Shown here piece after piece: positions 8,075-36,005 of a DNA stretch of 36,594 bases (the first letter of the stretch is position 1; the number at the start of each line of letters is the position of its first letter). Made by a program: the position numbers and the translations under genes. This DNA is from Candidatus Omnitrophota bacterium (GTDB lineage Bacteria; Omnitrophota; Omnitrophia; Omnitrophales; Aquincolibacteriaceae), in the NCBI GenBank assembly GCA_016196545.1, contig JACPXM010000050.1:1-36594 (forward strand). Reading direction: 5' to 3'. The notes under the pieces were generated by a model. That model searched no databases. It saw only the letters and a program-made list of their open reading frames with translations, and had not been told where the DNA came from.

Positions 8075-8165
8075 TTTACTCTCATCTAAAAATAATGCCC
8101 GCTCTTTTCAAATCAAGCCAGGCTGAAATTTTTAGGGCAAACCGCCACACGGCCTTCACGGAAAG

Positions 8166-9374: not shown

Positions 9375-9402
9375 AAAAACTGTCATCAAAGAATATTTAT
9401 TT

Positions 9403-10557: not shown

Positions 10558-11327
10558 TCCTCACAAGACAAAAATTTCTAAAGTTGAGCGAAGGCGAACG
10601 CCATCTCTGGGATGTTGAAAAGGCCATTCAAAAAATTTTAATCCTGGTATCGGCGCTGGCCCTTTTGGCAGCCCTTGGCGTGGGGTATATGCTTTACGAG
10701 CAGTTAGGGACGCTTCCCGTTCCGATTCGTTTGACTTTAATTTTGCTCTTAGGCCTTTTGGGGGCGATTCTCATTCAATCGATTTTGCTGACGCTGATCG
10801 ATTATCAGTGGATAAGGCTGGAAAAACGGGGCCTCTCCGATCCTTTGACGGGGCTGCTCAACCGCGCAGGTTTCGAAGAGATGCTGGCACAAGAACTTCG
10901 GCGGGTTGGCCGCTACCACGCTCCTTTATCGCTCTGTGTCATCGATCTTGATTCGTTTCGCTCCTTTCAGGAAAATTTCGGCAAGAGGCTCGCCGAAGAA
11001 CTCCTCAAACGCTTCGGAGATTTTCTTCAATCCAATGTCCGATTTTCAGATTGCATCGGCCGCGGGAAAAACGATGAATATTATGTTTTCCTCCCGCAAA
11101 CGGATTTGATTCGCGCCGCGAAATTCCTGGACCGTCTCATCCATCAGTCGGAAGACAAATTTGACTGCACCTTTTCGGCCGGTTTGACCGCGTATCGCGG
11201 CGGTGAAAGCACCGGAGAAATGATAACGCGCTCAGAAACAGCCTTAGAGCATGCTAAAAAGGAAGGCAAAAGCCGTATTCGCTGCCTCATTGAAAGCGAT
11301 GACAGTTTTTCTGTTTTGAGCCTTTGA
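10554..11327 (+). CDS. Membrane protein with degenerate GGDEF domain
   Basis: Two transmembrane helices (about residues 25-47 and 56-80) are followed by a GGDEF-type domain (about 95-245) that begins DPLTGLLNRAGFEEML. The active-site signature, usually RYGGDEF, reads RGKNDEY, so the two glycines are lost. The protein is thus unlikely to make cyclic di-GMP, although it may still bind nucleotide or act as a structural or regulatory module. The start has a strong AAAGGAG site and overlaps bioF by 4 bp. Its presence inside the biotin operon has no obvious reason; it may simply ride on the transcript. Confidence 0.82.
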   Translation: MILTRQKFLKLSEGERHLWDVEKAIQKILILVSALALLAALGVGYMLYEQLGTLPVPIRLTLILLLGLLGAILIQSILLTLIDYQWIRLEKRGLSDPLTGLLNRAGFEEMLAQELRRVGRYHAPLSLCVIDLDSFRSFQENFGKRLAEELLKRFGDFLQSNVRFSDCIGRGKNDEYYVFLPQTDLIRAAKFLDRLIHQSEDKFDCTFSAGLTAYRGGESTGEMITRSETALEHAKKEGKSRIRCLIESDDSFSVLSL

Positions 11328-11708
11328 ATGAAACAAATGCTTCTGGCATTCCTTTTTTTTTGTACGCTTGCCCCCGTCAGCGATGCCTGGGCCGTGGAGC
11401 CGGTTCACGTTTCGGATGTGATGCTTAAAGAGTCAACGGACAAGCGCTACATCATCGAGGGCCGTTTGACCAACATGACGGACCAATCAAGGGATGTTAT
11501 TTTTAGAACCCAATTAACCCTTTACGATAAAACCGCACCCAAAGGGGATTTACCGGTTTCAATTTTGCGGCGGGATAAAAATATTGTTTTAAAAGCCTGG
11601 GAAAGCCGGAAAGTGGAAATTGTGTTTGTCAGTGAAAATCAGCTTCGGGGTTCGCTTCGCTTGGAACCCTCCATAAGGATTCGAAGGCAGAGGGAATGGA
11701 ATTATTAA
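11328..11708 (+). CDS. Exported protein of unknown function
   Basis: The 126-residue product begins with a clear signal peptide (residues 1-22; MKQMLLAFLFFCTLAPVSDAWA, probable cleavage after AWA). The mature part, about 100 residues, is rich in beta-strand pattern (YIIEGRLTNMTDQSRDVIFRT, then KVEIVFV), resembling small immunoglobulin-like or FxLYD-type periplasmic domains. This is only a fold-level impression. It starts directly at the stop of the GGDEF gene (TGAATG) and overlaps bioA by 13 bp. It may work with the GGDEF membrane protein. Confidence 0.7.
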   Translation: MKQMLLAFLFFCTLAPVSDAWAVEPVHVSDVMLKESTDKRYIIEGRLTNMTDQSRDVIFRTQLTLYDKTAPKGDLPVSILRRDKNIVLKAWESRKVEIVFVSENQLRGSLRLEPSIRIRRQREWNY

Positions 11709-13102
11709 TCAAAAAAGGGAAAGGGGAGAGGAGACAGTCCCGAGTTTCATCCACCTTAAAAGACAAGGACAAGCGATTTCTCTGGCATCCCTTTACTCAA
11801 ATGAGGGACTGGCAGGAAGAGGACATCCTTGTGATTGAACGGGCCCAGGGTGTTTATCTGGAGGACATTCAAGGACGCCGTTATTTGGATGGGGTCTCTT
11901 CGCTTTGGTGTAATATTCACGGTCACCAAGTGCCTGAGATTGACCGGGCAATTGAAGATCAACTAAAAAAAGTCGCACACTCGACTTTTCTGGGGTTGTC
12001 GCATGCCCCGGCCGTTGAACTTGCCGAGAAGCTGATTGAAATTTCTCCCAAAAGACTCACCCGTGTTTTTTATTCGGATTCCGGGTCCGAGGCCGTTGAA
12101 ATCGCCTTGAAAATGGCCTTTCAGTACTGGCGTCATCGGGAAAGGCCTGAAAAAAAGAAATTCGCAAAACTCACTTTGGGTTATCACGGAGATACCTTAG
12201 GTTCGGTGAGCGTCGGAGGGATGGATCTCTTTCACGAAATTTTTTCCTCGCTTCTCTTTGAAACCTATGCGATACCTTCTCCTTACCGATACCGGTGGCC
12301 CGGAACAAGGGATACGGAAAAGGTCAAGGAGGAATCGCTTGCAGCGATGGAGGAGGTTCTCGCGCGTCATCACAAAGAATTGGCTGCCCTTGTGATGGAG
12401 CCTTTGATTCAAGGGGCTGCGGGAATGATTGATCAACCGACCGGCTACATTTCGCGTGCCAGGGAACTTACGAAGAAGTATAATCTCCTGCTTATTTTTG
12501 ATGAAGTGGCGACGGGTTTTGGCCGCACGGGGACGATGTTTGCCAGTGACCAGGAAAAGGTAAGTCCCGATATTCTTACGGCGGCAAAAGGCCTTACAGG
12601 AGGCTATCTTCCACTGGCTGTGACGCTTACAAGCGAAGAAATCTATGAGGCTTTTTTAGGAAATTATGGGGAGAAAAAAACTTTTTTCCATGGGCACACC
12701 TATACCGCCAATCCGCTGGCCTGCCGTGCGGCGCTTGCTTCACTGGAATTATTTAAGAAAAAGAGAGTTTTAGAGAGGCTTCGCCCCAAGATCGCATTTT
12801 TAAGATCGCGGCTTGAGGATTTTTATCAAATTCCAATCGTAGGGGATATACGCCAGGTGGGTTTTATGATCGGGATAGAATTGGTTCGGAGTCGGGAGAC
12901 CCAAGAACCGTTTGACTGGAATGATAAAATCGGCATTCGTGTGATTCAAAAGGCTAGGGCGAAGGGCGCGATCTTGAGGCCCCTGGGTTCAGTCATTGTC
13001 CTGATGCCGCCGCTTGTCATGTTAGAACGTGAACTCTCAAGACTTCTTGAGATTACTTATCAATCCATCAAGGAAGTTTCGGAAGAAATAAAGAGATGCT
13101 GA
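11696..13102 (+). CDS. bioA: Adenosylmethionine-8-amino-7-oxononanoate aminotransferase
   Basis: PLP aminotransferase (class III) making 7,8-diaminopelargonate. The conserved part starts at about residue 27 with RFLWHPFTQM, the typical BioA opening. The segment IFDEVATGFGRTG at 268-280 carries the PLP aspartate Asp269, and Lys298 in TAAKGLTGG is the PLP lysine. At 468 residues it is slightly longer than usual because of a basic, non-conserved N-terminal tail of about 25 residues; no other start codon lies in frame between 11696 and the conserved region. It overlaps the upstream secreted-protein gene by 13 bp and bioD by 7 bp. Confidence 0.93.
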   Translation: MELLIKKGKGERRQSRVSSTLKDKDKRFLWHPFTQMRDWQEEDILVIERAQGVYLEDIQGRRYLDGVSSLWCNIHGHQVPEIDRAIEDQLKKVAHSTFLGLSHAPAVELAEKLIEISPKRLTRVFYSDSGSEAVEIALKMAFQYWRHRERPEKKKFAKLTLGYHGDTLGSVSVGGMDLFHEIFSSLLFETYAIPSPYRYRWPGTRDTEKVKEESLAAMEEVLARHHKELAALVMEPLIQGAAGMIDQPTGYISRARELTKKYNLLLIFDEVATGFGRTGTMFASDQEKVSPDILTAAKGLTGGYLPLAVTLTSEEIYEAFLGNYGEKKTFFHGHTYTANPLACRAALASLELFKKKRVLERLRPKIAFLRSRLEDFYQIPIVGDIRQVGFMIGIELVRSRETQEPFDWNDKIGIRVIQKARAKGAILRPLGSVIVLMPPLVMLERELSRLLEITYQSIKEVSEEIKRC

Positions 13103-13827
13103 AACCGGGTATTTTTATTACGGGGACGGATACGGGAGTTGGGAAAACCATCGTGGCAGCGGGGCTTGCGATGGCGCTTCGCTCGCGCGGGCTTCGTGTC
13201 GGCGTCATGAAACCAGTCGCAACCGGTTGTCAAGGGACGGACCAACATTTGGTTTCCATGGATGCCGTTTTTTTAATGGAAGCCGCGGAGAATGAATATG
13301 CTGCTTTAAGCTCGCCGGCTCGTTTTCGTCACCCTCTTTCTCCCAACGTGGCCTCCGCCCTAGAAAAAAAACCGATAAAAATTTCGGAAATTGTCCGCGC
13401 CTATCAGGAGCTTCAAAGGCACTATGACTTTATCATCGTGGAGGGAATTGGGGGTCTTTTAGTTCCGATTTCCAAGGATTATTTTGTGGCGAATCTTATC
13501 AAGGAATTCGAGCTGCCCCTTTTAATCGTGGCCCGTAGCGGGCTCGGGACGATTAATCACACGCTTTTAACCGTGGATGCGGCGGTCGTGCGTGGGTTTG
13601 ATATCCGTGGAATTATTTTTAATCGAATGCCCACCGTAAATTTTTCCATGGTGGAAGTGACCAATCCTAAAGTGATTCACGAATTAACCGGTATCCCCAT
13701 TTTGGGATCGCTTCCGGAAATGGATCATGTGGATGTTGAAACCTGTAAATTTGGAAATCTTAAGGAAATTTTTCTCGAGCGTATTCAAATCGACAAAGTT
13801 CTTAATCCCTCGGAGGTCTTAAGATAA
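13096..13827 (+). CDS. bioD: Dethiobiotin synthetase
   Basis: ATP-dependent closure of the ureido ring from 7,8-diaminopelargonate and CO2. The 243-residue protein has the P-loop GTDTGVGKT at residues 10-18, the KPVATGC segment near 36-42 that binds substrate, and EGIGGLLVPI (the EGAGG-like motif, here with Ile) near 118. It overlaps bioA by 7 bp and has a weak ribosome binding site, so translational coupling is likely. It completes bioA, bioB, bioD and bioF; early pimelate genes other than the KAS are not visible. Confidence 0.93.
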   Translation: MLKPGIFITGTDTGVGKTIVAAGLAMALRSRGLRVGVMKPVATGCQGTDQHLVSMDAVFLMEAAENEYAALSSPARFRHPLSPNVASALEKKPIKISEIVRAYQELQRHYDFIIVEGIGGLLVPISKDYFVANLIKEFELPLLIVARSGLGTINHTLLTVDAAVVRGFDIRGIIFNRMPTVNFSMVEVTNPKVIHELTGIPILGSLPEMDHVDVETCKFGNLKEIFLERIQIDKVLNPSEVLR

Positions 13828-19407: not shown

Positions 19408-20694
19408 TCAGGCTGCCTGCGCCTTTGAATCACAGGGTTCAACTTTAGAGTATGTTTCCAGAAGGTTTTGCTTTTCAAAGGAATTTAAATGACCGCAAAC
19501 CTCATTGAGGCTCAAGAGATGCCGTAAATCCTCCAGCCCCAGTGTAAATTTTTGACTAGGGTCCTGGGAGGCGGTTTTGGATAAAAAATAAAATCGGTAG
19601 AGATCGTAATTTTCTCGTGAAACTTTTTGCCGGGCTTCTTCGATATTGCATCGCATTAAAACCGCCGGCGCGTTATTGACATAGGAATATTGGCGCACCT
19701 CGCCTATCGGATAAAAGTAAAGGTGACGGTAGATCGCGACATGATTGGGATTGACCGTAATCGCAAGGTCATCAAGGCCGAGGGCACGGGCCGCCAAGAA
19801 CATTTCCCGGAAAAGCTGAAAAAGGAACTTCATTTTAGAGACATTCCCAAGAACAAAACGCCCATTTTTAAAAATAGCCTTGTTGGTGGCCAGCATGCCC
19901 ACCTCTCCTATTTTTCTTCCTTGATTTCTTAAGGAATTAAGCTCGTCGGAAAAGATTTTATCGGCCGGGAGTCCATGGGAAGTGTGATCCGGAATGAGGG
20001 AAATCGTGCCGCCGATTTGGCCGGTTTTATTTTTTGCGATAAAAGTCCAGGCATAGGGCAAGAGACAATGAAAATTGAAAAATGTCTTAGGATGATTGGC
20101 GGCGATGTAGCCACGCTTTAAGTATTCCTGATAAACCAGGCTAAAGCCGCGTTGAAGGTCCTGAAAGTTTTTTACCGGATAAAAATCCCACTGCCCGATT
20201 TTTCGCGTGAAGAAAAAAGTAATCAAGCGATCTTTTATCGAATTTCTTCTTTCAAGAAACTTGGCTAATTCCATGGCGCTCCAACGCGCTATTAAAGAGC
20301 GCGCTTCGTGATTTGTAAACAAAAATTCACAACCTAGTTGATAGTAGGCATGGCCCTTTTTTTCTTTTTGGGTTTTGAGCAGTGCACCATGCCGAATAAC
20401 GGCATTGAGTTGCAGATCCTTAAGGAAATTTGGTTTTTTGAAAATGATCCGGATGCAGTCTCCCTTGATAAAGGGTTTTTCAAGCGGACAAGTGAAGCGA
20501 AAGCCCGAAGCGCTCATTTCGGGAATCCGAATGGCCGCGGCAATGGGCTGAGGTTCAATGGAGAAATTGGGACCATGTCGATAAACTAAAAGATCCACAT
20601 TCGGAAAGAAAATCCGGTTGGAGAGACGCCGGGAATGGGTGTTTTCGCGCAATAAGCGCACAATAGGCCTTACTAAATTACTCGCATTTATCAT
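19408..20694 (-). CDS. PilZ-like domain plus FeeM-like N-acyltransferase, paralog A
   Basis: The 428-residue protein has an N-terminal PilZ-like region (about residues 20-150; RRLSNR followed by a degenerate DxSxxG read as EMSASG) and a C-terminal GNAT-fold acyltransferase region (about 165-360). Hallmarks of the latter are YLKRGYI, GGTISLIPD and GRKIGEVGMLA. I recognise this part as similar to N-acyl amino acid synthases (FeeM type), which move an acyl chain from acyl-ACP to an amino acid. Cyclic di-GMP control is suggested by PilZ, but the key aspartate is Glu. It is a clear paralog of the divergent gene at 20944. Confidence 0.72.
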   Translation of the reverse strand: MINASNLVRPIVRLLRENTHSRRLSNRIFFPNVDLLVYRHGPNFSIEPQPIAAAIRIPEMSASGFRFTCPLEKPFIKGDCIRIIFKKPNFLKDLQLNAVIRHGALLKTQKEKKGHAYYQLGCEFLFTNHEARSLIARWSAMELAKFLERRNSIKDRLITFFFTRKIGQWDFYPVKNFQDLQRGFSLVYQEYLKRGYIAANHPKTFFNFHCLLPYAWTFIAKNKTGQIGGTISLIPDHTSHGLPADKIFSDELNSLRNQGRKIGEVGMLATNKAIFKNGRFVLGNVSKMKFLFQLFREMFLAARALGLDDLAITVNPNHVAIYRHLYFYPIGEVRQYSYVNNAPAVLMRCNIEEARQKVSRENYDLYRFYFLSKTASQDPSQKFTLGLEDLRHLLSLNEVCGHLNSFEKQNLLETYSKVEPCDSKAQAA

Positions 20695-20943
20695 AGCTAA
20701 TTGCCGTATTCTCCCTACTTTTTTAATAAATTAAAGAACTTTTTTAAAAACATATTAATATTACTAGCGTAACTATAACCGTGGAAATGGGTTATTTCAA
20801 GTTGCCTGAGCTAAAAAGATATAGTAACTTATTGCAATTTCTATAGTTATGGCTGGGTATTATTGAAAAAACATGTTTCATAGATTAGTTTTTAAGTTAG
20901 TTATATTAGTTAAGATAGATTAGATGTTTTAGGGGAGTGTTCC
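20695..20943. promoter_or_regulatory. AT-rich divergent promoter region with repeated motifs
   Basis: This 249-bp gap separates two divergent paralogs. It holds an inverted repeat TAACTATA (20770-20777) / TATAGTTA (20842-20849), three TTAGTT copies (20885, 20897, 20906) and two exact TAGATTAG copies (20881-20888 and 20916-20923). Much higher AT than the flanks fits promoter DNA. Candidate -35 boxes exist (TTGCAA at about 20832, TTGAAA at about 20863), but no pair is convincing. The repeats are plausible operator sites for shared control. Confidence 0.5.
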
Positions 20944-22224
20944 ATGATACGAAGGCTCTTGGGAAGGTCCAATTGGGAATCGGGGATAGCCGTGATGGAA
21001 GACAATGTCCTGGGAAATCGGGTCATGGCCTTCCGGTTTCCGATTGAAGAGGATAGTGTCAAAGAGGGCGCTGATTCAATGATTTCCTTTAGCCTTCCTG
21101 TGAAGTACAGAAAAAAATCCGGAAGCGTTCTTCGGAACATCGATTCTCATATTGAAGCCTCCCGCAACGGCGTGCGTTTGGCTGTGAATAAACCCCTGGC
21201 AGTGGGGACGCGCATTGAATTGAATCTCAAGCTTCCAAAAATCCATCACAGCATGCATTTAATCGGCGTGGTGGTTTGGCTGCAATCTTCCCTAAATCAC
21301 CTCGCGAGTTACGAATGCGGTGTGGTTTTTGATAATTTGAGGAAGGTCTCCCATAAAGACAAATTGATAGGACTTTTTGCCGACCGTCTTTGTCACTATG
21401 CGATTCAGAAGACAAAAAATTTTATCTGCCGGCCCGCCGAGAGCTGGTACGAAATTTCTCAAGCCTTCCGCCTCATTTACCGGCAATATTTAATGCGTGG
21501 TTATTGCAGGCCCAATCCTACCGAAATGCATTACAATTATTTTTGCATGTTGCCTCAATCACGGGCCTTCATTGTGGAAAGTGATAAAAAAATTCTTGGC
21601 ACGATCAGTCTCATTCCGGATTCTCCCTGCGGACTTCCGATGGAATCTCTTTTTCCGATGGAGATATCGAAGTTACGTGCCCCCGGCCGCAAACTGGCCG
21701 AAGTCGGATTTCTGGCCCTGGATCTTGACCGGTTTGGGAAAAAAAGGTTTTCCCTGACGGATTTCCGCAAACTCTCCTGCACGTTTCAACTCTTTAAAAT
21801 CATGTTTGATTATGCGCGTCAGATGGGTGTGACCGATCTTGTCATTGCGATGCATCCTAAGCATAAAGAGCTGTATGAATACCTGACGTTTGAGACCCTC
21901 GGCCCCGTCAAATCTTATGAAGGGGCTTGCGGAAATCCAGCATTGCCGATGCGCATGAATATTCCTCAGGCGGAAGAACACACGGCGACCCATCACGGAA
22001 AGGGGATGTATTTCTTGAAGGACAGAATTCCGAAAGAAATTCTGAGCCGCCATTTTTGCTGGACCGCCCAAGACATTTACGATTTAACCCTCAAATTTCA
22101 GCCCCTTTGGGAAGACATTCCCCAAAACGCCAAAGATTATTTGAAATTTTGCTATCCCAGCCTTCAATTTTCTAATGCCCTCTCGACGGAACCTCACAAA
22201 GAATCTTCCTTTCAAAACTTTTAG
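20944..22224 (+). CDS. PilZ-like domain plus FeeM-like N-acyltransferase, paralog B
   Basis: A 426-residue paralog of the divergent gene at 19408. An N-terminal PilZ-like region (about residues 35-150) has the degenerate switch motif IEASRNGVRL, again with Glu at the aspartate position. The acyltransferase region (about 160-350) shares IYRQYLMRGYC, ILGTISLIPD, GRKLAEVGFLALD and a C-terminal MHPKHKELYEYL segment with its partner. The family match is to N-acyl amino acid synthases, which use acyl-ACP; an ACP gene lies 1.1 kb downstream. The GGGGAG site precedes the ATG. Product and acceptor are unknown. Confidence 0.72.
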   Translation: MIRRLLGRSNWESGIAVMEDNVLGNRVMAFRFPIEEDSVKEGADSMISFSLPVKYRKKSGSVLRNIDSHIEASRNGVRLAVNKPLAVGTRIELNLKLPKIHHSMHLIGVVVWLQSSLNHLASYECGVVFDNLRKVSHKDKLIGLFADRLCHYAIQKTKNFICRPAESWYEISQAFRLIYRQYLMRGYCRPNPTEMHYNYFCMLPQSRAFIVESDKKILGTISLIPDSPCGLPMESLFPMEISKLRAPGRKLAEVGFLALDLDRFGKKRFSLTDFRKLSCTFQLFKIMFDYARQMGVTDLVIAMHPKHKELYEYLTFETLGPVKSYEGACGNPALPMRMNIPQAEEHTATHHGKGMYFLKDRIPKEILSRHFCWTAQDIYDLTLKFQPLWEDIPQNAKDYLKFCYPSLQFSNALSTEPHKESSFQNF

Positions 22225-22356: not shown

Positions 22357-23205
22357 ATGCCTGCCCCACCTTCGGTTAAAAATATTCGTGTGGGTCACAG
22401 TCCCGATCCCGACGATGCGTTCATGTTTTATGCCCTTGCTAAGCAGAAAATTCCGATGCAGGGTTTTCAAGTGGAGCATGTGATAGAAGATATTGAAACC
22501 TTGAATCAAAGGGCGCTAAGGGGAGAGCTTGAGGTGACGGCGGTTTCCTGCCACGCCTACGCGTATCTGGCGGAGTCATACGTTATTCTTCGAAGCGGCG
22601 CCAGTGTGGGGGACAATTACGGACCGATTCTCATCGGCCGCGGAGAAGAAAAAATAACTTCTCTCAAGGGAAAAAAAATTGCGATTCCCGGAAAACTCAC
22701 GACGGCCTATCTCGCATTGCAGCTTTACGACGCCGATTTTGAGCCCCTCTTTATTCCCTTCGACAAAATCTTAGATGCCGTTTTGAGCGGGGAAGCGGAT
22801 TTGGGACTTGTGATTCATGAAGGACAAATCACTTATCAAGAAAAAGGCCTTTCAAAACTCATGGATCTTGGCCAGTGGTGGCAGGAAAAAACAAAACTTC
22901 CTCTGCCTTTAGGGATTGACATTATCCGCCGCGATCTTGGAAAAGATTCAATCGAAGCTTTCGCAAAGCTCTTAAAGCAGAGTATTGTTTATGCGCTTCA
23001 ACATCGCAGCGAAGCCCTGGATTATGCGCTCGAGTATGGCCGCGGGCTTTCCAAGCCTCTTGGGGACCAATTTGTCGGGATGTATGTCAATGACTATACC
23101 GTAGATTTAGGCCTCAAAGGTGAAAGGGGCCTTGCCCGACTGCTTGATGCTGCCTATGACAAGGGGCTACTCCCGAAGCGCATTTTGCTTGAATTCGTTG
23201 GATAA
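22357..23205 (+). CDS. mqnD: MqnD-like protein (1,4-dihydroxy-6-naphthoate synthase family)
   Basis: The family acts in the futalosine route to menaquinone, where MqnD cleaves cyclic dehypoxanthinyl futalosine to 1,4-dihydroxy-6-naphthoate. The 282-residue protein has the periplasmic-binding-protein-like fold with SPDPDDAFMFYAL at residues 15-27, EDIETLN near 44-50, LRSGASVG near 78-85 and VIHEGQITY with His154 in the place of the proposed catalytic histidine. MqnA is a close relative, so MqnA/MqnD confusion is possible; length and the ETLN and IHEGQ motifs favour MqnD. No other mqn gene is in the window. Confidence 0.8.
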   Translation: MPAPPSVKNIRVGHSPDPDDAFMFYALAKQKIPMQGFQVEHVIEDIETLNQRALRGELEVTAVSCHAYAYLAESYVILRSGASVGDNYGPILIGRGEEKITSLKGKKIAIPGKLTTAYLALQLYDADFEPLFIPFDKILDAVLSGEADLGLVIHEGQITYQEKGLSKLMDLGQWWQEKTKLPLPLGIDIIRRDLGKDSIEAFAKLLKQSIVYALQHRSEALDYALEYGRGLSKPLGDQFVGMYVNDYTVDLGLKGERGLARLLDAAYDKGLLPKRILLEFVG

Positions 23206-23310: not shown

Positions 23311-23604
23311 GTGGAAGAGATAACGGCCATCATTTTTGAGGCGATCAATCAAATTAACCGTCAATTGGATATAGACAAGCAGCTTGTCAAATCCGAGGCT
23401 GCGGTCCTTTACGGACCTTCGGGAAAGCTCGATTCAATCGGGTTTGTGATGCTGATTGTCAATATCGAACAGAGGCTAAAAAAAAAGTATAAAAAAGCGA
23501 TTACCTTGACGAATGAAAAAGCGATGTCGCAAAAAAATAGCCCCTTTCTGAGCGTTCGAAGCCTTACCCTCTATATTCAAAAACTTCTCGCGGAGAAAAG
23601 ATGA
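23311..23604 (+). CDS. Acyl carrier protein-like protein
   Basis: A 97-residue helical protein with the carrier-protein motif KLDSIGFVML at about residues 39-48. Ser42 is the probable phosphopantetheine attachment site (classical motif DSL). It is longer than housekeeping AcpP and has an unusual Lys-rich segment after the motif (RLKKKYKKA). The start is GTG at 23311, 6-7 nt after a strong AAGGAGG. It overlaps the SDR gene by 4 bp and leads an eight-gene operon, so it probably carries the acyl intermediate on which the SDR and the ligase act. Confidence 0.75.
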   Translation: MEEITAIIFEAINQINRQLDIDKQLVKSEAAVLYGPSGKLDSIGFVMLIVNIEQRLKKKYKKAITLTNEKAMSQKNSPFLSVRSLTLYIQKLLAEKR

Positions 23605-24305
23605 ACCCCAATCCCGTCATTTTGATTACCGGAACCCGCAAGGGAATTGGTCGCTACCTGGTGGACTATTACCTCAAGAAGGATTTTCAAGTGATTGGCT
23701 GCAGCCGCTCCGAAAGTGATTGCAAACACTCGAATTACTGGCATTTTTGTGCGGACGTGGCGGATGAAAAAACAGTAGAAAAATATTTTTCGGAAATTGA
23801 CGAACGCTTCGGCGGCCTTGATATTTTAGTGAATAATGCGGGCATTGCCTCCATGAATCACATGCTTCTCACTCCCCTCAAGACGTTAAAGAATATTTAT
23901 GAAACCAATGTTTTTGGGACCTTCCTTTTTTGCCGGGAGGCCGCAAAATTGATGCAAAAAAAGAAGCGGGGTCGAATCATTAATTTTGCAACCGTGGCGA
24001 CTCCTTTGGATTTGGAAGGGGAAGCCGCGTACGCCTCCTCCAAGGCCGCGGTGGAAAGTCTGACGCGGATTTTCGCGAAGGAACTTGCACCGTTTGGCAT
24101 TACGGTGAACGCCGTGGGACCCACTCCCATAAAAACGGATTTGATACGTTCCGTTCCGGAAGAGAAGATGAAGGCGCTACTCCAGAGGCAGGCGATTCGC
24201 CGCTACGGGGAATTTAAGGATGTGGCCCATGTCCTTGATTTCTTTATCCAAAAGGAAAGTGATTTTGTCACCGGACAGGTCGTTTATCTTGGCGGCATTT
24301 CATGA
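23601..24305 (+). CDS. SDR-family oxidoreductase, 3-oxoacyl-ACP reductase-like
   Basis: The 234-residue Rossmann protein has TGTRKGIG at residues 10-17 (cofactor binding), NNAG at 78-81, Asn103, Tyr144 and Lys148 (YASSK). The catalytic Ser, 13 residues before the Tyr, is replaced by Thr131, which can keep activity in some SDRs. FabG-like reduction of a beta-ketoacyl group on the adjacent ACP is the most likely job. It overlaps both neighbours by 4 bp and has GGAG before its ATG. Confidence 0.85.
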   Translation: MNPNPVILITGTRKGIGRYLVDYYLKKDFQVIGCSRSESDCKHSNYWHFCADVADEKTVEKYFSEIDERFGGLDILVNNAGIASMNHMLLTPLKTLKNIYETNVFGTFLFCREAAKLMQKKKRGRIINFATVATPLDLEGEAAYASSKAAVESLTRIFAKELAPFGITVNAVGPTPIKTDLIRSVPEEKMKALLQRQAIRRYGEFKDVAHVLDFFIQKESDFVTGQVVYLGGIS

Positions 24306-25648
24306 ACCTGGATTTTTTAACCCGAAAATTCGAAAATCGATTAAAATATCCCTTTTTGATTTGGAAGGACGATTCTTATTCCTACGGGTGGTTGCTCCAA
24401 CAGATCCGCGAATTTCAGAAGACCCCCGCTTATTCTGAAGTGAAACCGGGTTGTCCGGTTTTGCTCGAGGCCGATTTTTCACCCAAGGCGGTGGCGCTTT
24501 TTTTGGCGCTGATTCAAAAGGCCGCGATTTTAATTCCTCTCAGCCAAGGTACGGGCGAGGCAAAAAAAAAGGAGTCTCTTGAAATCGCAAAACCCTGCCT
24601 ACGGTTTTCTCTGAACGCTCAAGACGAGTTAGAAGTTTCCCCTTTCTCCCATGAACCTCATTTCCCTTACTATGAGGAACTCAAAAAAAGAAAGCATCCT
24701 GGCCTTGTGCTTTTTTCATCCGGTTCCACCGGGAAAATTAAGGCCGCGGTGCACGACTTTGCCGGAATTCTTGAAAAATTCAAAACCCCGCGGCATGATT
24801 TTATCACCATCGCCTTTCTTTTATTTGATCACATCGGAGGCATTGACACGCTTTTTTACGCCCTTTCCAATGGAAGTTTGTTGGTGACTTTGGAAACCCG
24901 GGATCCCGAATTAGTTGCTCAGACCATTCAAAAATATCAAGTGGAGGTACTCCCCGTAACCCCAAGCTTTCTTAATCTTCTTATTTTAAGCGGCGCCTAT
25001 CAGCGCTACAGCCTCTCCAGCCTTAAATACATTACCTATGGAACGGAACTCATGCCGGAAATCACGCTTCAAAAATTAAAAAATATTTTTCCCAATGTTA
25101 TCTTGTTTCAAAAATATGGGACCACGGAAGTCGGAACGCTGCGTTCCAAATCTGAAAGCTCGGATTCCCTGTGGGTCAAAGTCGGGGGCGAGGGTTATCA
25201 AACCCGGGTGGTCGACGGGATGCTTGAAATTAAGGCGGACTCTGCGATGCTGGGCTACCTCAATGCCCCGAGCCCTTTTACCTCGGGGGGCTGGTTTCAA
25301 ACCGGAGATTTGGTGGAAGTCAAAGGGGAATACGTAAAATTCTTGGGCCGGGCTTCTGAGCTTATTAATGTGGGAGGACAAAAGGTTTACCCGGCCGAGG
25401 TCGAAAATATTATTCAGCAAGTGGTGAATGTGAAAGAGGTTACGGTCTACGGAGAAAAAAATCCCCTGCTCGGTCAAATCGTTTGCGCTCAGGTGAGTAC
25501 GAATCAAGCCGAGGAACCGGAGCAGGTGGCCGAAAAAATCCAAATTTTTTGCCGGCAAAAGTTGGAAAGTTACAAAGTACCGGTTAAAGTTTTAGTGACG
25601 TCGTGTCTTCAAACCTCGGACCGGTTTAAAAAAAAGAGAATAGGATAA
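24302..25648 (+). CDS. ANL-superfamily acyl-CoA/acyl-ACP ligase (AMP-forming)
   Basis: Activates a carboxylic acid as acyl-AMP and transfers it to CoA or a carrier protein. The 448-residue protein carries the P-loop-like SSGSTGK at 139-145, the YGTTEVG motif, the GWFQTGDLVE motif and the hinge region FLGRASELINVGGQKVYPAEVE. The C-terminal catalytic lysine region is DRFKKKRIG. It is about 60-100 residues shorter than typical members, mostly in the N-terminal part. With the ACP two genes upstream, loading of the ACP is plausible. The substrate is unknown. Confidence 0.85.
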   Translation: MNLDFLTRKFENRLKYPFLIWKDDSYSYGWLLQQIREFQKTPAYSEVKPGCPVLLEADFSPKAVALFLALIQKAAILIPLSQGTGEAKKKESLEIAKPCLRFSLNAQDELEVSPFSHEPHFPYYEELKKRKHPGLVLFSSGSTGKIKAAVHDFAGILEKFKTPRHDFITIAFLLFDHIGGIDTLFYALSNGSLLVTLETRDPELVAQTIQKYQVEVLPVTPSFLNLLILSGAYQRYSLSSLKYITYGTELMPEITLQKLKNIFPNVILFQKYGTTEVGTLRSKSESSDSLWVKVGGEGYQTRVVDGMLEIKADSAMLGYLNAPSPFTSGGWFQTGDLVEVKGEYVKFLGRASELINVGGQKVYPAEVENIIQQVVNVKEVTVYGEKNPLLGQIVCAQVSTNQAEEPEQVAEKIQIFCRQKLESYKVPVKVLVTSCLQTSDRFKKKRIG

Positions 25649-25660
25649 AGGGAGAATATC

Positions 25661-26443
25661 ATGAAAGTAAGAATCGGATTTTTGGCCCTTTTTTTAGCGG
25701 GACTCTTGATCTCGGGCTGGGGTCCCGGTTCCATTTCCTTTGCGCAGGACGCCAGCACTGATCCCGTCAAAATCCTGGAACGAATGGATTACATCCTTCG
25801 CGGTGAATCGAGCCAGGCGGATGTCCAATTTGACGTTAAAACGCCGAAATGGGAGCGTCATTATAAAATGCGCGTTTGGATGAAAGGGATTGATTATGCC
25901 TTTGCCCGCCTTCTGGCACCCGAAAAAGTGGAAGGCCAGGGATTTTTACGCGTGAAATCCAGGGTCTGGAATTATTTGCCCAGCGCGGAAAGGACAATTT
26001 TAATTCCGCCTTCCTTAATGACCGACAGGGCACTCGGCAGTGAATTTTCCAATGATGATTTGGTCAAACTCAGCTACCTTGCCCGTGATTATGAGGCGTC
26101 CCTGGAAGGGGAGGAGACTTACGACGCCGAGGCGGCGTATCGTTTTAGGCTCAAGCCATTTCCCGATGCACCGGTATCTTATGAAAAGTTGGAACTTTGG
26201 GTTCGGAAGAAAGATTCCGGGCCCCTGAAAATGATTTTTTATAATGAAAGGCTCGAACCGATTCGAGCCATGCACTATTCTGGTTACAAAGATTTCAACG
26301 GCGTGGAAAGGCCGACCGTTTGGCGCATGGAAAGTCTAAAAGAACAGGGTCGTGTGACGACCTGGACTGCGATGGAAGCCCACTATGATCAAGCGATCTC
26401 GGAATCCATTTTCACGCGCGAAAATCTGGAAAAATATCCCTGA
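25661..26443 (+). CDS. LolA-like outer membrane lipoprotein-sorting family protein
   Basis: The 260-residue protein has a signal peptide (about residues 1-29, ending at SFAQ) and a LolA/LolB-like half-barrel of the family annotated outer membrane lipoprotein-sorting protein. Typical parts are ILERMDYILRGESSQADVQF near 38-57, VWNYLPSAERTILIPPSLM and YKDFNGVERPT near the end. Members of this family often sit beside RND or ABC exporters and are thought to carry lipids or lipidated molecules through the periplasm. It precedes an FtsX permease with a TGATG overlap, so a joint export function is likely. A GGGAG site precedes the ATG. Confidence 0.87.
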   Translation: MKVRIGFLALFLAGLLISGWGPGSISFAQDASTDPVKILERMDYILRGESSQADVQFDVKTPKWERHYKMRVWMKGIDYAFARLLAPEKVEGQGFLRVKSRVWNYLPSAERTILIPPSLMTDRALGSEFSNDDLVKLSYLARDYEASLEGEETYDAEAAYRFRLKPFPDAPVSYEKLELWVRKKDSGPLKMIFYNERLEPIRAMHYSGYKDFNGVERPTVWRMESLKEQGRVTTWTAMEAHYDQAISESIFTRENLEKYP

Positions 26444-27666
26444 TGTTTCTTTTAAAATTTGCTTTGCTTAATCTGACACGCAACAAACGCCGGTCCGCCA
26501 TTACGGTACTTGCCGTCGGTATCGGTCTTGCGGCGCTGATTTTTTTATGGGCCTTCATGGACGGTTCCCATGAAGAACAGCGCGAAAACGTCACCCGCCT
26601 TTTTACCGGCCATGTTCAGATTCACGCTGCGGGCTTTGCGAAAAAAATGTCGGCGGAGCTCGTGATCCCCAATCGCCCGGAAGTTTTGGAAAAAATAAAA
26701 TCAAATCCGCGCGTTGTCTCACTCGCCCCGCGAAGCAAATGCGAGGCCTTGATTGGAACGACGGCGCAATCCAAAGGGATTGTCCTTACCGGAATTGACT
26801 TGGATGCCGAGCCGCTTGTGACTGACATTAAGAAACAAGTCAAAGAAGGAGAATTTTTGTCCGGGGGAGAGGGTAAAGAAATTCTAATTGGCCATGTGCT
26901 GGCCGAAAAACTTGAAGTTGGGCTGGGGGACAAGGTTGTGCTGATGACCCAAGCCATGGACGGGACACTTGCTGGATTTGCTTACCGGGTCAAAGGCGTG
27001 ATTCATTCCGGCGCGCTGCCTCTGGATGAATATTCCGCGTTCATCTCGCTGGCCTCCTCCCAAGAGCTTCTCGGGATTGATTCGGACATCCACGAGATCG
27101 CTGTCCGACTGCGAAGCCGCGCCGAGATCGAAGGTTTTAAAAAGGACATGCAGACCGTTCTTCCCTCCGACTCCTATGAAATGCTCGCCTGGAATGAAAT
27201 TGTCCCGGAAGTGGATCAATGGGCCAGTTATTCCAATGCCATTATTCAAACGATGCTGATTGCAGTTATGGCGGTGATTGCGGTGGGAGTTATGAACACG
27301 ATTCTCATGTCCATTTTTGAAAGGACCAAGGAAATCGGTGTGATGATGGCCCTCGGGACGGGTCCACGCCAAGTGGTGAGCATGATTTTCTTTGAAACCC
27401 TGGTGCTTGAATTTATCGGAATTATCCTGGGCATTGGTTTGGCTTATCTTTTGGTCTTTCATTTTCAGCGGGTGGGAATTCTCATGACGGGTTTTGAGGA
27501 TGCCTTTGCCGAATCCTTTATGAGTCCGGTCGTGCATCCCCACCTTGCCTTTCACCGCGTGCTGACCAGTGTCAAGACCTTGGTGCTGATCACTTCCTTC
27601 ATCAGTTTGTATCCGGCCTGGCGGGCGGCCAAGATGGAGCCTGTGAAGGCCATTTATCACTCTTAG
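26443..27666 (+). CDS. FtsX/MacB/LolC-type ABC transporter permease
   Basis: The 407-residue membrane protein has one N-terminal helix (about residues 20-42), a large periplasmic MacB-type domain (about 45-265) and three C-terminal helices (about 270-295, 320-345, 370-395) separated by the FtsX segment IFERTKEIGVMMALG. This is the LolC/LolE/MacB topology, in which substrates are extracted from the outer leaflet of the inner membrane. Its start overlaps the LolA-like gene by 1 bp. Only one permease gene is present, so it probably forms a homodimer with the ATPase encoded next. Confidence 0.9.
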   Translation: MFLLKFALLNLTRNKRRSAITVLAVGIGLAALIFLWAFMDGSHEEQRENVTRLFTGHVQIHAAGFAKKMSAELVIPNRPEVLEKIKSNPRVVSLAPRSKCEALIGTTAQSKGIVLTGIDLDAEPLVTDIKKQVKEGEFLSGGEGKEILIGHVLAEKLEVGLGDKVVLMTQAMDGTLAGFAYRVKGVIHSGALPLDEYSAFISLASSQELLGIDSDIHEIAVRLRSRAEIEGFKKDMQTVLPSDSYEMLAWNEIVPEVDQWASYSNAIIQTMLIAVMAVIAVGVMNTILMSIFERTKEIGVMMALGTGPRQVVSMIFFETLVLEFIGIILGIGLAYLLVFHFQRVGILMTGFEDAFAESFMSPVVHPHLAFHRVLTSVKTLVLITSFISLYPAWRAAKMEPVKAIYHS

Positions 27667-27677
27667 GAATCTATTTT

Positions 27678-28358
27678 ATGGCGCTCGTTAAAATTGAGGG
27701 TGTCTCAAAAGTCTTTAAGGAAGCATCCCTCCCTGTTCAGGCCTTGACCTCCATTCATGTAGAAATTCAAAAGGGAGAATTTACCGCCTTTTGTGGTCCT
27801 TCGGGTTCGGGAAAAACCACGCTGCTTAATCTCATCGGATGCCTGGACCGTCCTTCGGAGGGAAAAGTCCATTTGGAAAATGAAGAAGTAAGTTCTCTGG
27901 CTCAAGGAAAGCTAGCCACGATTCGCCGCCGTAAAATCGGATTCATCTTTCAGGATTTTAATTTAATTCCAACGCTCACTGTCCGAGAAAATATCGAATA
28001 TGTGCTTTGGCTCCAGGGAGAAACCGAATCCCTGCGCCGTCAAAAATCCAAGGCTCTCGCAGAACGTTTCGGCATCGGAAAGCTGCTTTCCCGCAGGCCG
28101 GCTCAGATCAGCCGCGGCCAGCAGCAACGTGTAGCCTGCGCGCGGGCCATTATTCATAAGCCCCTTTTGATTATTGGCGATGAGCTTACGGCGAATCTGG
28201 ATCATAAAACCGGTGCGGAACTCATGGATTTTATTAAAAAACTCAATCGCGAAGAAGGCCTTACTTTTTTGTATGCCACCCATGATCCCATTATGATGGA
28301 ACGTGCCTCGCGTGTTGTCAGAATGCAGGATGGGAGAATTATCGATGGCAAGGGATAA
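27678..28358 (+). CDS. LolD/MacB-type ABC transporter ATPase
   Basis: The 226-residue nucleotide-binding subunit has Walker A GPSGSGKT at 40-47, the Q-loop in FIFQDFNLIPTLTV, a deviant signature ISRGQ at 144-148 (usually LSGGQ), Walker B LLIIGDE at 163-169 followed by LTANLD (usually PTGNLD), and the H-loop His202. Catalytic residues are intact, but the two signature deviations are unusual for LolD. An AGGAA site lies upstream of the ATG at 27678. It partners the FtsX-type permease 11 bp upstream. Confidence 0.9.
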   Translation: MALVKIEGVSKVFKEASLPVQALTSIHVEIQKGEFTAFCGPSGSGKTTLLNLIGCLDRPSEGKVHLENEEVSSLAQGKLATIRRRKIGFIFQDFNLIPTLTVRENIEYVLWLQGETESLRRQKSKALAERFGIGKLLSRRPAQISRGQQQRVACARAIIHKPLLIIGDELTANLDHKTGAELMDFIKKLNREEGLTFLYATHDPIMMERASRVVRMQDGRIIDGKG

Positions 28359-29604
28359 AATGCAAAGCCAAAGGGTACCAGGTACCTTTTCGATCAAAAG
28401 GTACCTGGTACCTTTTGGGCTTTTTTTGGCCTTTCCTTTTTTTCTCCACGCTGAAGAATCCTCCTCTCCCGTCAAGACCGATATCTCCGGCTATCTGAAG
28501 ACGCTGAATTTTTTTACCCGTACCACTTCCCTCAGTCCGGAGCTGGTAAATAATCCCCTTGCCGTGGAGGAAATTAAGGAAGATTTATTTCAAAATTTAG
28601 AACGGGTGCGTCTTCAAATGAGGGCTGGGGTAAAGCTTCCATTGAATCAAAGACTTGTGGCCAAGGTGGATTATGATCATCAAGCCTTTTTTGGAAGCTT
28701 CGTCCATTCCGATAATTTTCGATACCGCCGATGGACGGTCGAAGAGCGGCAATTTGGAGATTTAAGTCAAACCCTGGTGAAAAAAAGAAACGCCTTTTAT
28801 GAGCACCGTCTCTACCGCGCCTATTTAACTTATGAAACGGAAAAGGCTTCCTTGACCGTTGGCCGGCAGCAAATTCCCTGGGGGCTCGGCCACTTTTTCA
28901 CGCCCACCGACGTCTTTAACCCCTTTAATCCCACCCAAATCGAATGGGATGAGCGGGACGGAACAGACGCCGTGAATTTAGCGGTCAAACTTCCCTATGA
29001 AGCAAAGACCCAGTGGATCTATACGCCCCGAGGGGCCCGGAGCCTTCATCCGCAAAGATTTTTTAACCGCACCTCCCGCGATGTCAAAGGTTACGAAATT
29101 GGGGTCATCAACGGATTGATTCATCGTGATTTCGCCTCGGGCTTTGATTTAAGAGGGAATGTCAAGGACTCGGCCGTGCGCGGCGAATTTTTGTACCGGC
29201 ACAAGGATAATGAGGAAAAGGATTTTATGCAATTCACGGTCAATGCGGATTATAATTTGCCTAAAAATATTTATATGCTCCTTGAATATCACTTTAACGG
29301 CCTGGGGCGCCGGAGCTTTCGGGATTATCAGCGGGATTTGCAAACGCGAGGCGATTTCACGCAGCTTGCCAGGAATTATCTTGGCCTCCTTCTCGGTTAC
29401 GACATTACCGCCCTTCTCCGACTCGAGCACCGTACGCTTTTTAATATGGATGACGTCAGTTTTTTCATCCGGCCGGAGCTTCAATATGAAGTCACCTCCA
29501 ATCTCCTTGCCACGCTCGGCGCCCAGCTTTTTCTTGGTGCGAATCAAGATGAATACGGTGCGCCTGCCAATCTCTATTTCGGAGAAATGAAATATAATTT
29601 TTGA
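28345..29604 (+). CDS. Outer-membrane beta-barrel protein, porin-like
   Basis: The protein of about 419 residues has a signal peptide (cleavage near LHAEES) and many alternating strands with a final KYNF, the C-terminal aromatic expected for barrel insertion by BAM. I recognise no precise family; DUF1302-like or alginate/porin-type barrels look similar. GRQQIPWGLGHFFTPTDVFNPFNP is a typical conserved turn. The start is ATG at 28345, 8 nt after GGGAG and overlapping the ATPase by 14 bp; ATG at 28360 (2 bp after its stop) is also good. Either way the signal-peptide n-region (VPGTF...KRYLVP) is encoded by a palindromic repeat. Confidence 0.8.
   Translation: MARDKMQSQRVPGTFSIKRYLVPFGLFLAFPFFLHAEESSSPVKTDISGYLKTLNFFTRTTSLSPELVNNPLAVEEIKEDLFQNLERVRLQMRAGVKLPLNQRLVAKVDYDHQAFFGSFVHSDNFRYRRWTVEERQFGDLSQTLVKKRNAFYEHRLYRAYLTYETEKASLTVGRQQIPWGLGHFFTPTDVFNPFNPTQIEWDERDGTDAVNLAVKLPYEAKTQWIYTPRGARSLHPQRFFNRTSRDVKGYEIGVINGLIHRDFASGFDLRGNVKDSAVRGEFLYRHKDNEEKDFMQFTVNADYNLPKNIYMLLEYHFNGLGRRSFRDYQRDLQTRGDFTQLARNYLGLLLGYDITALLRLEHRTLFNMDDVSFFIRPELQYEVTSNLLATLGAQLFLGANQDEYGAPANLYFGEMKYNF
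28370..28416. repeat. GGTACC palindromic coding repeat, copy 3 (two-arm unit)
   Basis: Left arm 28370-28390 and right arm 28396-28416 are each 21 nt and palindromic around GGTACC. They are inverted copies of one another with one mismatch and a 5-nt loop (CGATC). The unit has no stop codon in this frame and is translated VPGTFSIKRYLVPF in the signal-peptide region of the barrel protein. Confidence 0.85.
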
Positions 29605-29612
29605 TTTTTCTT

Positions 29613-30017
29613 ATGAAAATGCAAATTGCATTTATCGGGGCCATGATTTTCTTGAGTGCTACGGGAGAAACTAATCCCTCGAGTCTCCAGACCTCCGATG
29701 CCTACCGGCAGTATGTAAAGCGTCCGAAAAACGAGCTTTCCAAACTGATTTATCTCATGGATTTTTTCAAGGCCCAGGACATTAAAGTCAATTATGACGG
29801 CTATGATTATGACGCCGAGTATGCCGCCCGCATCGCCAAAGGATACATTGCCAAAAATTTCACCTCTGGCGACAAAGCCGAAAAATGGTTAAAAATTCAC
29901 GCCTACCGCTCACAACCGAGGGGCAATGTGATCTATCTCAAGTATTCTGACGGGAAGCTGAAGTCCATGCGGGAGATATTAATCCAGGAATTGAAAAAAT
30001 TGGAAGAGACGGCTTAG
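29613..30017 (+). CDS. Small exported protein, possibly DUF5329-like
   Basis: The 134-residue product has a signal peptide (about residues 1-18) and a helical mature part that contains LIYLMDFFKAQDIKVNYDGYDYDAEYAARIAKGYIAKNF-type features. This resembles DUF5329 proteins, small periplasmic proteins of unknown role, but the match is by eye. The ATG at 29613 gives a clean signal peptide. A TTG at 29601 that overlaps the barrel stop is the alternative. It is the last gene of the operon and ends tail to tail with the M24 peptidase gene (4 bp overlap). Confidence 0.65.
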   Translation: MKMQIAFIGAMIFLSATGETNPSSLQTSDAYRQYVKRPKNELSKLIYLMDFFKAQDIKVNYDGYDYDAEYAARIAKGYIAKNFTSGDKAEKWLKIHAYRSQPRGNVIYLKYSDGKLKSMREILIQELKKLEETA

Positions 30018-34148: not shown

Positions 34149-34157
34149 GAAAAGCTG

Positions 34158-36005
34158 ATGGTACCAGGTACCTTTCGAGACGAAAAACGCTTCGAAAGGT
34201 ACCTGGTACCTTTAGCCCTTCTGTTTTTTTTCTTCCTTCCCTCTAATCTATTTTCCTCCCAATCCTCCACCGCTAAAAGTTGCATGGTGGTAACCGCTAA
34301 CTCGCATGCCACACGCGCTGCGTTTGAAATCCTCCAAGATCGGGGAAATGCCGTAGATGCTGCAATTGCCGCCCAATGGGTATTGAATATTGTGGAGCCT
34401 CAATCCTCTGGGATCGGAGGGGGAGGATTCTTTCTCTATTATGAAGCCGCGACCAAAAGAATTTATACCTTCGATGGCCGTGAAACTGCCCCCCAAGAAG
34501 TTTATCCGGAAATTTTTTTGGAGGGTCAAGACCAGCCCGTTCCGTTTAAACCGAATCGCATCACAGGGGGCCGTCCGGTAGGAGTTCCCGGAACCTTAGC
34601 ATTGCTTCAAGAGGTGCATGAGCGTTTTGGAACCAAGCGGTTTAGTTTCTCCGGTCTTTTGAATCCCGCCATTGAAATTGCCGAACGCGGTTTTCCAGTT
34701 TCCAAGCGCCTGGCTTATTTTTTGAATCAGGAAAAGGAGCGCCTTGCGCTTTTTGAAGCCAGCCGCGGCATTTTCCTAAAAAAGGACGGTTCCCCTTACC
34801 GTGAAGGGGAAATCCTCCTGCAAAAAGATATCGCCAAGACCTTCCGTCTGATTCAACAGCAGGGAATGCGTGTCTTTTATGAGGGGGAAATCGCCGAGGC
34901 CATTGTTCAGGCGGTGAGAAACTCACCGGTGAATCCCGGCCTTATGAAGCGTGAAGATTTGGCTCACTACCACGCGGTGGAACGCATGCCGGTTCACGGC
35001 CGATACCGTAATTATGATGTTTTCAGCATGGGGCCCCCTTCTTCGGGAGGCGTCACATTGATTGAAATATTGAATATTCTTGAAAATTTCCAGCTCGATT
35101 TACTGGGAAGAACGCCCAACGGGGTACATGTTTTTTTAGAAGCCCAGAAACTCGCATTTGAAGACCGCAATGAATTCCTGGGTGACCCTGATTTTGTGGA
35201 AATCCCAATCGCAGAGCTTCTTTCAAAACCTTTCGCGGAAAAGAAAACCCAGGAAATTAATTACCAGACAGCCGTTCCCACAGGCCGGGAAGGTATCCGG
35301 ACTTTGATGCTTGAGCCGGCCAATACCACGCATCTGTCCATCGTGGATGGCTGGGGGAATATGGTTTCGTTTACTTCCACGATTGAAGAAATCTTTGGCT
35401 CCGCGATGGTTGTGCCCGGATATGGTTTTGTATTAAATAATGAGCTGACCGATTTTGATGCCGAGCCGACCGCTCGCCGTACCGACCGTACGGCACCGCA
35501 GGACCAAGCGCCCGACCGGCGCTCATTCAAGCGGCGGCACCGAATGACCAAGCGGTCGTCCGCCGCTGAACCGACCGGTGCGGAGTCCAAAAAATCAGGG
35601 ACGATTCTTAAACCCAATGCCCCCGAGGGAGGCAAAAGACCCCGCAGCAGCATGACCCCCACCTTTGTTTTTAACGGCGGAAAACCGGTTCTTGTGTTAG
35701 GATCACCCGGCGGATCGGCGATTATCGGGACGGTTTTAAATCTCATCGTGAACCTGCTTGATTTTGGGATGCCTGCAACAGAGGCGATGAAATTGGATCG
35801 CATGATTCACCGGGGAGAGGAAGTGGAACTTGAAAGCGCACTTTTCCGTAATCAGGAATTAAAGCGTGAGCTCATGCGCCGGGGACATCGAGTGATGGAA
35901 AAGGAAGCCATCGGAAATGCCCAGATGATTTATTTTGATCCGGAAGAAAATATTTGGGTGGGTGTCAGCGACCCGCGCGGCGAGGGGGAGGCGCTTGGCC
36001 GGTGA
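34158..36005 (+). CDS. ggt: Gamma-glutamyltransferase with in-frame basic insertion
   Basis: Ntn-hydrolase that cleaves the gamma-glutamyl bond of glutathione-type compounds in the periplasm. The 615-residue precursor has a signal peptide (about residues 1-34), whose n-region is encoded by a palindromic repeat that begins at the start codon. The autoprocessing nucleophile is Thr390 (TTHLS), with GSPGGSAI near 516 and the GKRPRSSMTPT loop. Between TDFD and GGKRPRSSM sit 56 residues, about 34 more than in E. coli GGT; much of this is basic and GC-rich DNA (35460-35600). No strong ribosome binding site precedes the ATG. The protein may still be active, since the insert lies in a surface loop. 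Confidence 0.9.
   Translation: MVPGTFRDEKRFERYLVPLALLFFFFLPSNLFSSQSSTAKSCMVVTANSHATRAAFEILQDRGNAVDAAIAAQWVLNIVEPQSSGIGGGGFFLYYEAATKRIYTFDGRETAPQEVYPEIFLEGQDQPVPFKPNRITGGRPVGVPGTLALLQEVHERFGTKRFSFSGLLNPAIEIAERGFPVSKRLAYFLNQEKERLALFEASRGIFLKKDGSPYREGEILLQKDIAKTFRLIQQQGMRVFYEGEIAEAIVQAVRNSPVNPGLMKREDLAHYHAVERMPVHGRYRNYDVFSMGPPSSGGVTLIEILNILENFQLDLLGRTPNGVHVFLEAQKLAFEDRNEFLGDPDFVEIPIAELLSKPFAEKKTQEINYQTAVPTGREGIRTLMLEPANTTHLSIVDGWGNMVSFTSTIEEIFGSAMVVPGYGFVLNNELTDFDAEPTARRTDRTAPQDQAPDRRSFKRRHRMTKRSSAAEPTGAESKKSGTILKPNAPEGGKRPRSSMTPTFVFNGGKPVLVLGSPGGSAIIGTVLNLIVNLLDFGMPATEAMKLDRMIHRGEEVELESALFRNQELKRELMRRGHRVMEKEAIGNAQMIYFDPEENIWVGVSDPRGEGEALGR
34160..34210. repeat. GGTACC palindromic coding repeat, copy 4 (two-arm unit)
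   Basis: GGTACCAGGTACCTTTCGA (34160-34178) and TCGAAAGGTACCTGGTACC (34192-34210) form a perfect 19-bp inverted repeat with a 13-nt loop. The ggt start codon ATG (34158-34160) overlaps the left edge, so the hairpin covers the translation start. It is read VPGTFRDEKRFERYLVP, the same phase as in copy 3. Confidence 0.88.
35460..35600. repeat. GC-rich, repeat-containing insertion inside ggt
   Basis: About 140 bp that are clearly more GC-rich than the rest of ggt. It contains short inverted repeats such as CCGTACGG, TCATTC/GAATGA and CCGCACCGGTCGG-type copies of both orientations. It is translated as a basic, low-complexity segment (AEPTARRTDRTAPQDQ onwards). It keeps the frame. It may be a second kind of coding repeat. 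Confidence 0.55.

Follow-up and report, generated by a model that had tools for sequence, protein, structure and literature searches.

A possible operon for making and exporting a lipid of the N-acyl amino acid type in an Omnitrophota genome, with an ACP-SDR-ANL trio before a conserved LolA/FtsX/ABC/barrel cassette

N-acyl oxazolones are produced by a demonstrated set of an acyltransferase, a ThiF cyclase and a flavin-dependent oxidase (PMC10404671, PMC12856293), and the same three enzyme families have been tied to dehydro-N-acyl-tyrosines in Planctomycetota and Pseudomonadota (PMC12479983). Aryl polyene clusters combine the synthesis of acyl groups on an acyl carrier protein (ACP) with a LolA-like carrier and RND export (PMC8253772), and the mupirocin genes macpD, mupQ and mupS, which lie beside mmpF, form a set that makes 3-hydroxypropionyl-ACP from malonyl-CoA (PMC10098928). 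Here we compare with these systems a run of eight genes on contig JACPXM010000050.1 of a Candidatus Omnitrophota bacterium. The whole contig, 36.6 kb long, is referred to as the window, and it belongs to a metagenome-assembled genome (MAG) of 1.2 Mb that is 72% complete. The run consists of an ACP-SDR-ANL trio, an export cassette of four genes and one small gene, as follows:

23311..23604, plus strand: acyl carrier protein-like, with a DSI motif in LDSIGFVMLIVNIEQ; homologues stand beside the same enzymes
23601..24305, plus strand: SDR reductase (PF00106 E=5e-47)
24302..25648, plus strand: ANL adenylate-forming ligase, short form of 448 aa (PF00501 E=4e-26, PF13193 C-terminal domain)
25661..26443, plus strand: LolA-like periplasmic carrier (PF17131 LolA_like, 147.8 bits against a cut-off of 30)
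26443..27666, plus strand: FtsX/MacB-type permease, LolF/LolCE-like (PF12704 MacB_PCD, PF02687 FtsX)
27678..28358, plus strand: ABC ATPase, LolD/DevA-like (PF00005 E=1e-30)
28303..29604, plus strand: outer-membrane barrel, conserved in relatives; its model resembles porins
29601..30017, plus strand: small exported-looking protein, weakly DUF5329-like (E=0.016), overlapping the barrel gene

An earlier reading of this DNA, the sequence-only reading, had described eight open reading frames (ORFs) with overlaps or gaps under 13 bp, and their coordinates (23311-30017), common plus strand and spacing were all borne out. The ACP and SDR genes overlap by 4 bp, as do SDR and ANL; ANL and LolA are separated by a short gap of 12 bp that carries a ribosome-binding-like GGGAGAA; LolA and FtsX overlap by 1 bp, FtsX and ABC lie 11 bp apart, the ABC and barrel ORFs overlap, and the barrel and small-protein genes share 4 bp. 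We infer that the eight genes are co-transcribed, and their grouping appears to be more than chance because four of them keep company and order in nine related genomes. The proposed families stood for the SDR, ANL, LolA-like carrier, FtsX-type permease and ABC ATPase, all above Pfam cut-offs, but the Pfam search gave no match for the ACP-like protein and no significant one for the barrel (DUF1302 E=0.012) or the small protein.

The central observation is that the cassette is conserved while the genes before it are exchanged. Nine related genomes, from within the family or the order, have genes for the permease, ATPase and barrel at 52-66% identity, together with LolA wherever the contig allows (53-57% for the carrier in the cassette loci and 52-60% for the barrel in eight relatives). 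An E1/ThiF gene stands before LolA in all eight loci with visible sequence, preceded by a nitroreductase-family gene where the contig continues; in the ninth relative, the LolA, E1 and nitroreductase genes are on a separate contig. The genomes G005 and G014 carry the order FeeM-nitroreductase-E1-LolA-FtsX-ABC-barrel in one direction and nearly without gaps. In the window, ACP-SDR-ANL fills the nitroreductase and E1 slot, with the FeeM-type gene FeeM2 and an Mqn gene on one side and LolA on the other. A search of the 72%-complete window genome found no dedicated E1/ThiF or nitroreductase gene, just a generic ThiF match of 35%, and because the MAGs are incomplete such absences are weak. The trio has presumably replaced the nitroreductase and ThiF/E1 pair before the conserved export cassette, in the direction from pair to trio. 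FeeM is present in all ten genomes with a close barrel, and a scan of named genomes with the barrel, using strict seed patterns, recovered only the same Omnitrophota loci.

The linkage of trio and cassette is seen in one metagenome-derived genome and nowhere else, as might follow if an assembly or binning error had joined them. We find this scarcely credible, as the GC content and codon use of the trio are like those of the rest of the window, the junction is short and bears its own ribosome-binding-like motif, and the upstream FeeM agrees with the arrangement around this slot in G005 and G014. A recent arrival of the trio by horizontal transfer was also considered and set aside, its composition (GC 42-48%, with GC3 and codon use matching the rest of the window) giving it no support.

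When set beside the tyz (Mycobacterium), oxz (Pseudoalteromonas) and trz clusters, the FeeM, nitroreductase and ThiF/E1 genes of the relatives match the oxazolone gene set. The window has in common with these clusters the FeeM-like N-acyltransferase (two genes, PF21926 E about 1e-37), and a further likeness is that an MmpL gene is adjacent in M. tuberculosis. However, the window has ACP-SDR-ANL instead of the ThiF cyclase and the nitroreductase-family oxidase, both of which the nine relatives possess, and its exporter is LolA/LolF-like/ABC/barrel. With ThiF and oxidase missing, the window falls outside the oxazolone clusters. We also noticed that the TyzC oxidase, homologous to the nitroreductase-family genes of loci L037-L044, needs O2, which would be odd if these Omnitrophota are anaerobes.

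The sequence-only reading overlooked the enzymes that likely form the amide: a pair of FeeM-type N-acyltransferases is encoded at 19408-22224, just upstream of its eight genes. The upstream genes are:

20944..22224, plus strand: FeeM2, PilZ and FeeM-type N-acyl amino acid synthase (PF21926 E=5.7e-37, PilZ E=1.1e-6)
19408..20694, minus strand: FeeM1, FeeM-type N-acyl amino acid synthase (PF21926 E=2.8e-37; weak N-terminal PilZ, E=0.019)
22357..23205, plus strand: MqnA/MqnD-type menaquinone biosynthesis protein (PF02621 E=2.6e-77), between FeeM2 and the operon

FeeM2 is 47-48% identical to the FeeM that G005 and G014 encode in one operon with their cassettes, its profile matches the FeeM structure 2g0b (E=1e-32), and it likely moves an acyl group onto an amino acid. 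FeeM1, which diverges from FeeM2 and was aligned with the FeeM genes of the cassette loci, likely belongs to the same pathway, and the MqnA/MqnD-type protein is probably outside it. FeeM-type synthases take acyl-ACP (2g0b family; PMC10404671, PMC12479983), and N-acyl amino acid synthases linked to PilZ have been described, with control by c-di-GMP proposed (PMC4897644).

Within the trio, the product of 23311-23604 is likely an ACP because it has the DSI motif and its homologues adjoin the same enzymes; its single-sequence structure model (pLDDT 63.6) gave a best structure match at E=3.1, which is not significant. In searches of plasmids, ANL homologues of 35-44% identity were found adjoining SDR/ACP genes. 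Rhizobium sp. T1470 carries ACP, GNAT, SDR and ANL in the same order as the window, with 36% identity for the ACP-like protein (to the protein before GNAT-SDR-ANL) and 40% for the SDR, and on the thiomarinol plasmid pTML1 an ANL-SDR-ACP set adjoins a polyketide synthase gene, its ligase being 35% identical to the window ANL over the full length. From its layout, we take this pTML1 set to be the probable thiomarinol counterpart of mupQ/mupS/macpD. An ACP homologue on a Tistrella plasmid had no SDR or ANL match adjoining it. Relatives of the trio also occur within Omnitrophota: in G184, ACP and ANL genes lie on contig 44 in a polysaccharide-type cluster, apart from the cassette on contig 23, and in G304 SDR and ANL genes lie amid polysaccharide-type genes, these neighbours having been judged by eye in both genomes. 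The window ANL is 46% identical to that of G184 and 41% to that of G304, the ACP-like protein is 28% identical to the protein beside ANL in G184, and the SDR shows 62% identity over 60 residues to the G304 SDR; an ANL search of 117 relatives gave just generic matches of about 30%. Since its relatives adjoin acyltransferases or ketosynthases, the trio appears to be a reusable unit that makes acyl-ACP for one or the other.

ANL, SDR and ACP are also the components of MupQ/MupS/MacpD and of the thiomarinol counterpart, and the layout on pTML1 resembles the mupirocin set. The window differs in the lack of a following ketosynthase and in the reversed gene order, and we regard the trio as a candidate likeness of the MupQ/S/MacpD cassette. 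A FabF-like ketosynthase is encoded in the window at 8166-9374 before BioF; it was rejected as a chain extender, as it lies within a run of biotin genes (BioB-, BioF-, BioA- and BioD-like, 7037-13827) and its homologue adjoins BioF in G014.

The surroundings of the trio in G184 and G304, where the closest sequences found in the phylum sit among polysaccharide-type genes, suggest another use: the trio might make an acyl-ACP for the N-acylation of a surface sugar, as those relatives probably do, with the cassette carrying something else. This is unlikely in the window, where the operon has no glycosyltransferase or sugar-nucleotide gene in it or beside it and the nearest acyltransferases are of the FeeM type.

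The carrier of the cassette has a signal peptide (by eye) and no lipobox, and it matches the LolA-superfamily structure 3buu (E=3e-18); the best solved structures for the permease are LolF (E=5e-31) and LolE (E=1e-23). The carrier, permease and ATPase come from the same superfamilies as LolCDE-LolA and LolF-LolD, PF17131 carrier included, and the cassette could be an extra lipoprotein-sorting system of the Lol type, with the trio co-transcribed by accident or making a lipid for another use. The lack of the trio before the cassette of every close relative would agree with this, and so would L135, a cassette without lipid genes adjoining. Nevertheless, the permease falls below the curated LolCE cut-off (147.6 against 362.45 bits) and the ATPase below that of LolD (TIGR02211, 192.8 against 307.75 bits), a conserved barrel within the operon stands in the place expected for LolB, the cassette is linked to N-acyl lipid genes in many arrangements, and elsewhere LolA is accompanied by an MMPL-family lipid transporter instead of FtsX and ABC. 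A Lol-type sorting role is thus rather unlikely. Another reading is a pump of the MacB kind, for efflux or resistance, with enzymes upstream that are unrelated to it. This could draw on the MacB_PCD and FtsX domains of the permease, but MacAB-TolC has a fused ATPase-permease and a MacA adaptor, whereas here the ATPase is encoded apart from the permease, the Pfam matches of the operon include no adaptor domain and a LolA-like carrier is present, so that we consider such a pump very improbable.

Aryl polyene clusters, whose product goes to the outer membrane, likewise bring together ACPs, an acyl-ACP synthetase, a ketoreductase, a transporter and a carrier of the LolA-like kind. The window operon is without their ketosynthase/chain-length factor, dehydratase, thioesterase and RND transporter, has FtsX/ABC instead, and encodes a barrel where they have a LolB-like protein. 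The combination had been proposed as undescribed; the exact linkage of trio and cassette was indeed seen only here, but the union of acyl-ACP synthesis, LolA-like carrier and transporter is already known from aryl polyene clusters (PMC8253772).

A survey of 384 Omnitrophota genomes placed these loci in a wider setting. E1 and FeeM co-occur (25/28 against 12/356, p=5e-27, a statistic that ignores kinship). In the 14 loci found by E1 alone (L136-L149), LolA is present in 11 and FeeM in 11, and beside this LolA four loci have FtsX plus ABC as the transporter and six have an MMPL-family protein; among E1 or FeeM loci, the MMPL-family substitution is seen in L138-L144 and L211. FeeM loci without E1 (L212 and L215) have ligases and the cassette. 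Of the 14 distant barrel cassettes L121-L134, 12 are accompanied by TIGR03694-like N-acyltransferases, 11 by ligase-ACP-acyltransferase fusions and 13 by PaaK-like ligases, and several have exosortase or PEP-CTERM-like genes nearby; most neighbours in loci of this type were assigned by single-query profile, with curated-library checks on examples. At L120 (G257:C30, 489-12975) an olefin-type set of KAS III-like, hydrolase, OleC-like and 3beta-HSD genes comes before a barrel-LolA-FtsX-ABC cassette, and two similar CFA-synthase-like ORFs, judged by eye, also stand before it. As a theme, the idea of a product that is first made and later exported has good support, as the cassette lies repeatedly beside lipid-making genes. 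The coupling of synthesis to export genes recurs across the phylum with varied synthesis genes, but the eight genes do not form one conserved pathway: in the neighbourhood check, the cassettes of all nine close relatives were without the trio and the Omnitrophota relatives of the trio lay elsewhere, on a different contig from the cassette in G184.

According to PMC7293339 and PMC4897644, Craig et al. 2011 reported a link between the genes for N-acyl amino acid synthases and exosortases. The exosortase-associated synthases (TIGR03694) are N-acyl amino acid synthases near envelope genes, and the distant Omnitrophota loci pair them with the same export cassette; those of the window are instead of the FeeM type, and no exosortase was found in its 72%-complete genome. 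Exosortase is present in 6/10 cassette genomes of the order against 2/37 others. It was discarded as an obligatory partner, given that G014, at 95% completeness, carries the cassette but gave no exosortase match. A literature search of partial coverage returned no paper that combines exosortase, acyltransferase and LolA. Many FeeM/exosortase/LolA loci also encode a membrane protein, TMP290 (about 290 aa; L121:1323-2195 and homologues), that has no Pfam match.

Taken with the upstream synthases, the locus has about an even chance, in our judgement, of being a make-and-export operon for a lipid of the N-acyl amino acid type. Read from sequence, the ANL would activate a carboxylic acid and load it on the ACP of the operon, and the SDR would reduce the loaded acyl group; the analogy with MupQ/MupS/MacpD points to a hydroxyacyl-ACP as the probable result. 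FeeM2, FeeM1 or both would then use this acyl group to acylate an amino acid at its amino group. The LolF/LolCE-type permease, probably a homodimer, and the ATPase would extract the lipid from the inner membrane and hand it to the LolA-like carrier, which would deliver it to the barrel, where it would be inserted or released. Several points weigh against such an operon. The trio and the cassette are linked in the window genome only, and 9/9 close relatives have the cassette without the trio; the Mqn gene, with 132 bp before it and 105 bp after it, lies between FeeM2 and the operon; the SDR keeps YxxxK and has Thr at the usual position of the catalytic Ser (alignment A8); it is only 25% identical to the pTML1 SDR, and the ACP-like protein gave no useful BLAST alignment with the thiomarinol ACP; the substrates of ANL and SDR are read from family membership; and a strong palindrome at 28370-28424, which ends in a T-rich tail, could weaken barrel expression.

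The region of this palindrome deserves a closer description. The first GTG of the barrel ORF (28303) falls within the ABC gene, and the true start is probably ATG 28345 or 28360. The structure model of the barrel, of low confidence (mean pLDDT 55), matches porins at E 2e-8. A repeated element lies here and elsewhere in the window:

28371-28415, 34157-34213 and 6151-6169: REP-like palindrome AAAGGTACCWGGTACCTTT, single or paired

The element has 24 sites in the genome at no more than 1 mismatch, and a reversed control pattern has 0. One pair is located between the ABC stop and the signal peptide of the barrel and another where the gene at 34158 begins; placed in this way, they therefore encode an N-terminal VPGT stretch of the barrel ORF and of the 34158 ORF. 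For the small protein, no homologue was found beside the cassette in the cassette loci of the relatives.

We tentatively propose, as a possibility somewhat short of even, that Omnitrophota possess a general lipid-export chassis, made of a LolA-like carrier, LolF-like/ABC or MMPL transporters and a barrel, with interchangeable synthesis heads that would send unusual N-acyl lipids to the surface. The heads would be FeeM/ThiF/nitroreductase, the exosortase-type N-acyl amino acid synthase with ligase-ACP-acyltransferase, the olefin-type set and ACP-SDR-ANL, and the window would be a head swap making an N-(hydroxyacyl) amino acid lipid. The exported N-acyl lipids are possibly partners of an exosortase/exopolysaccharide system. 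The recurrent pairing with the cassette offers a concrete candidate route by which the products of N-acyl amino acid synthases may leave the cell, and the swapped head predicts that one exporter would take several related N-acyl lipids.

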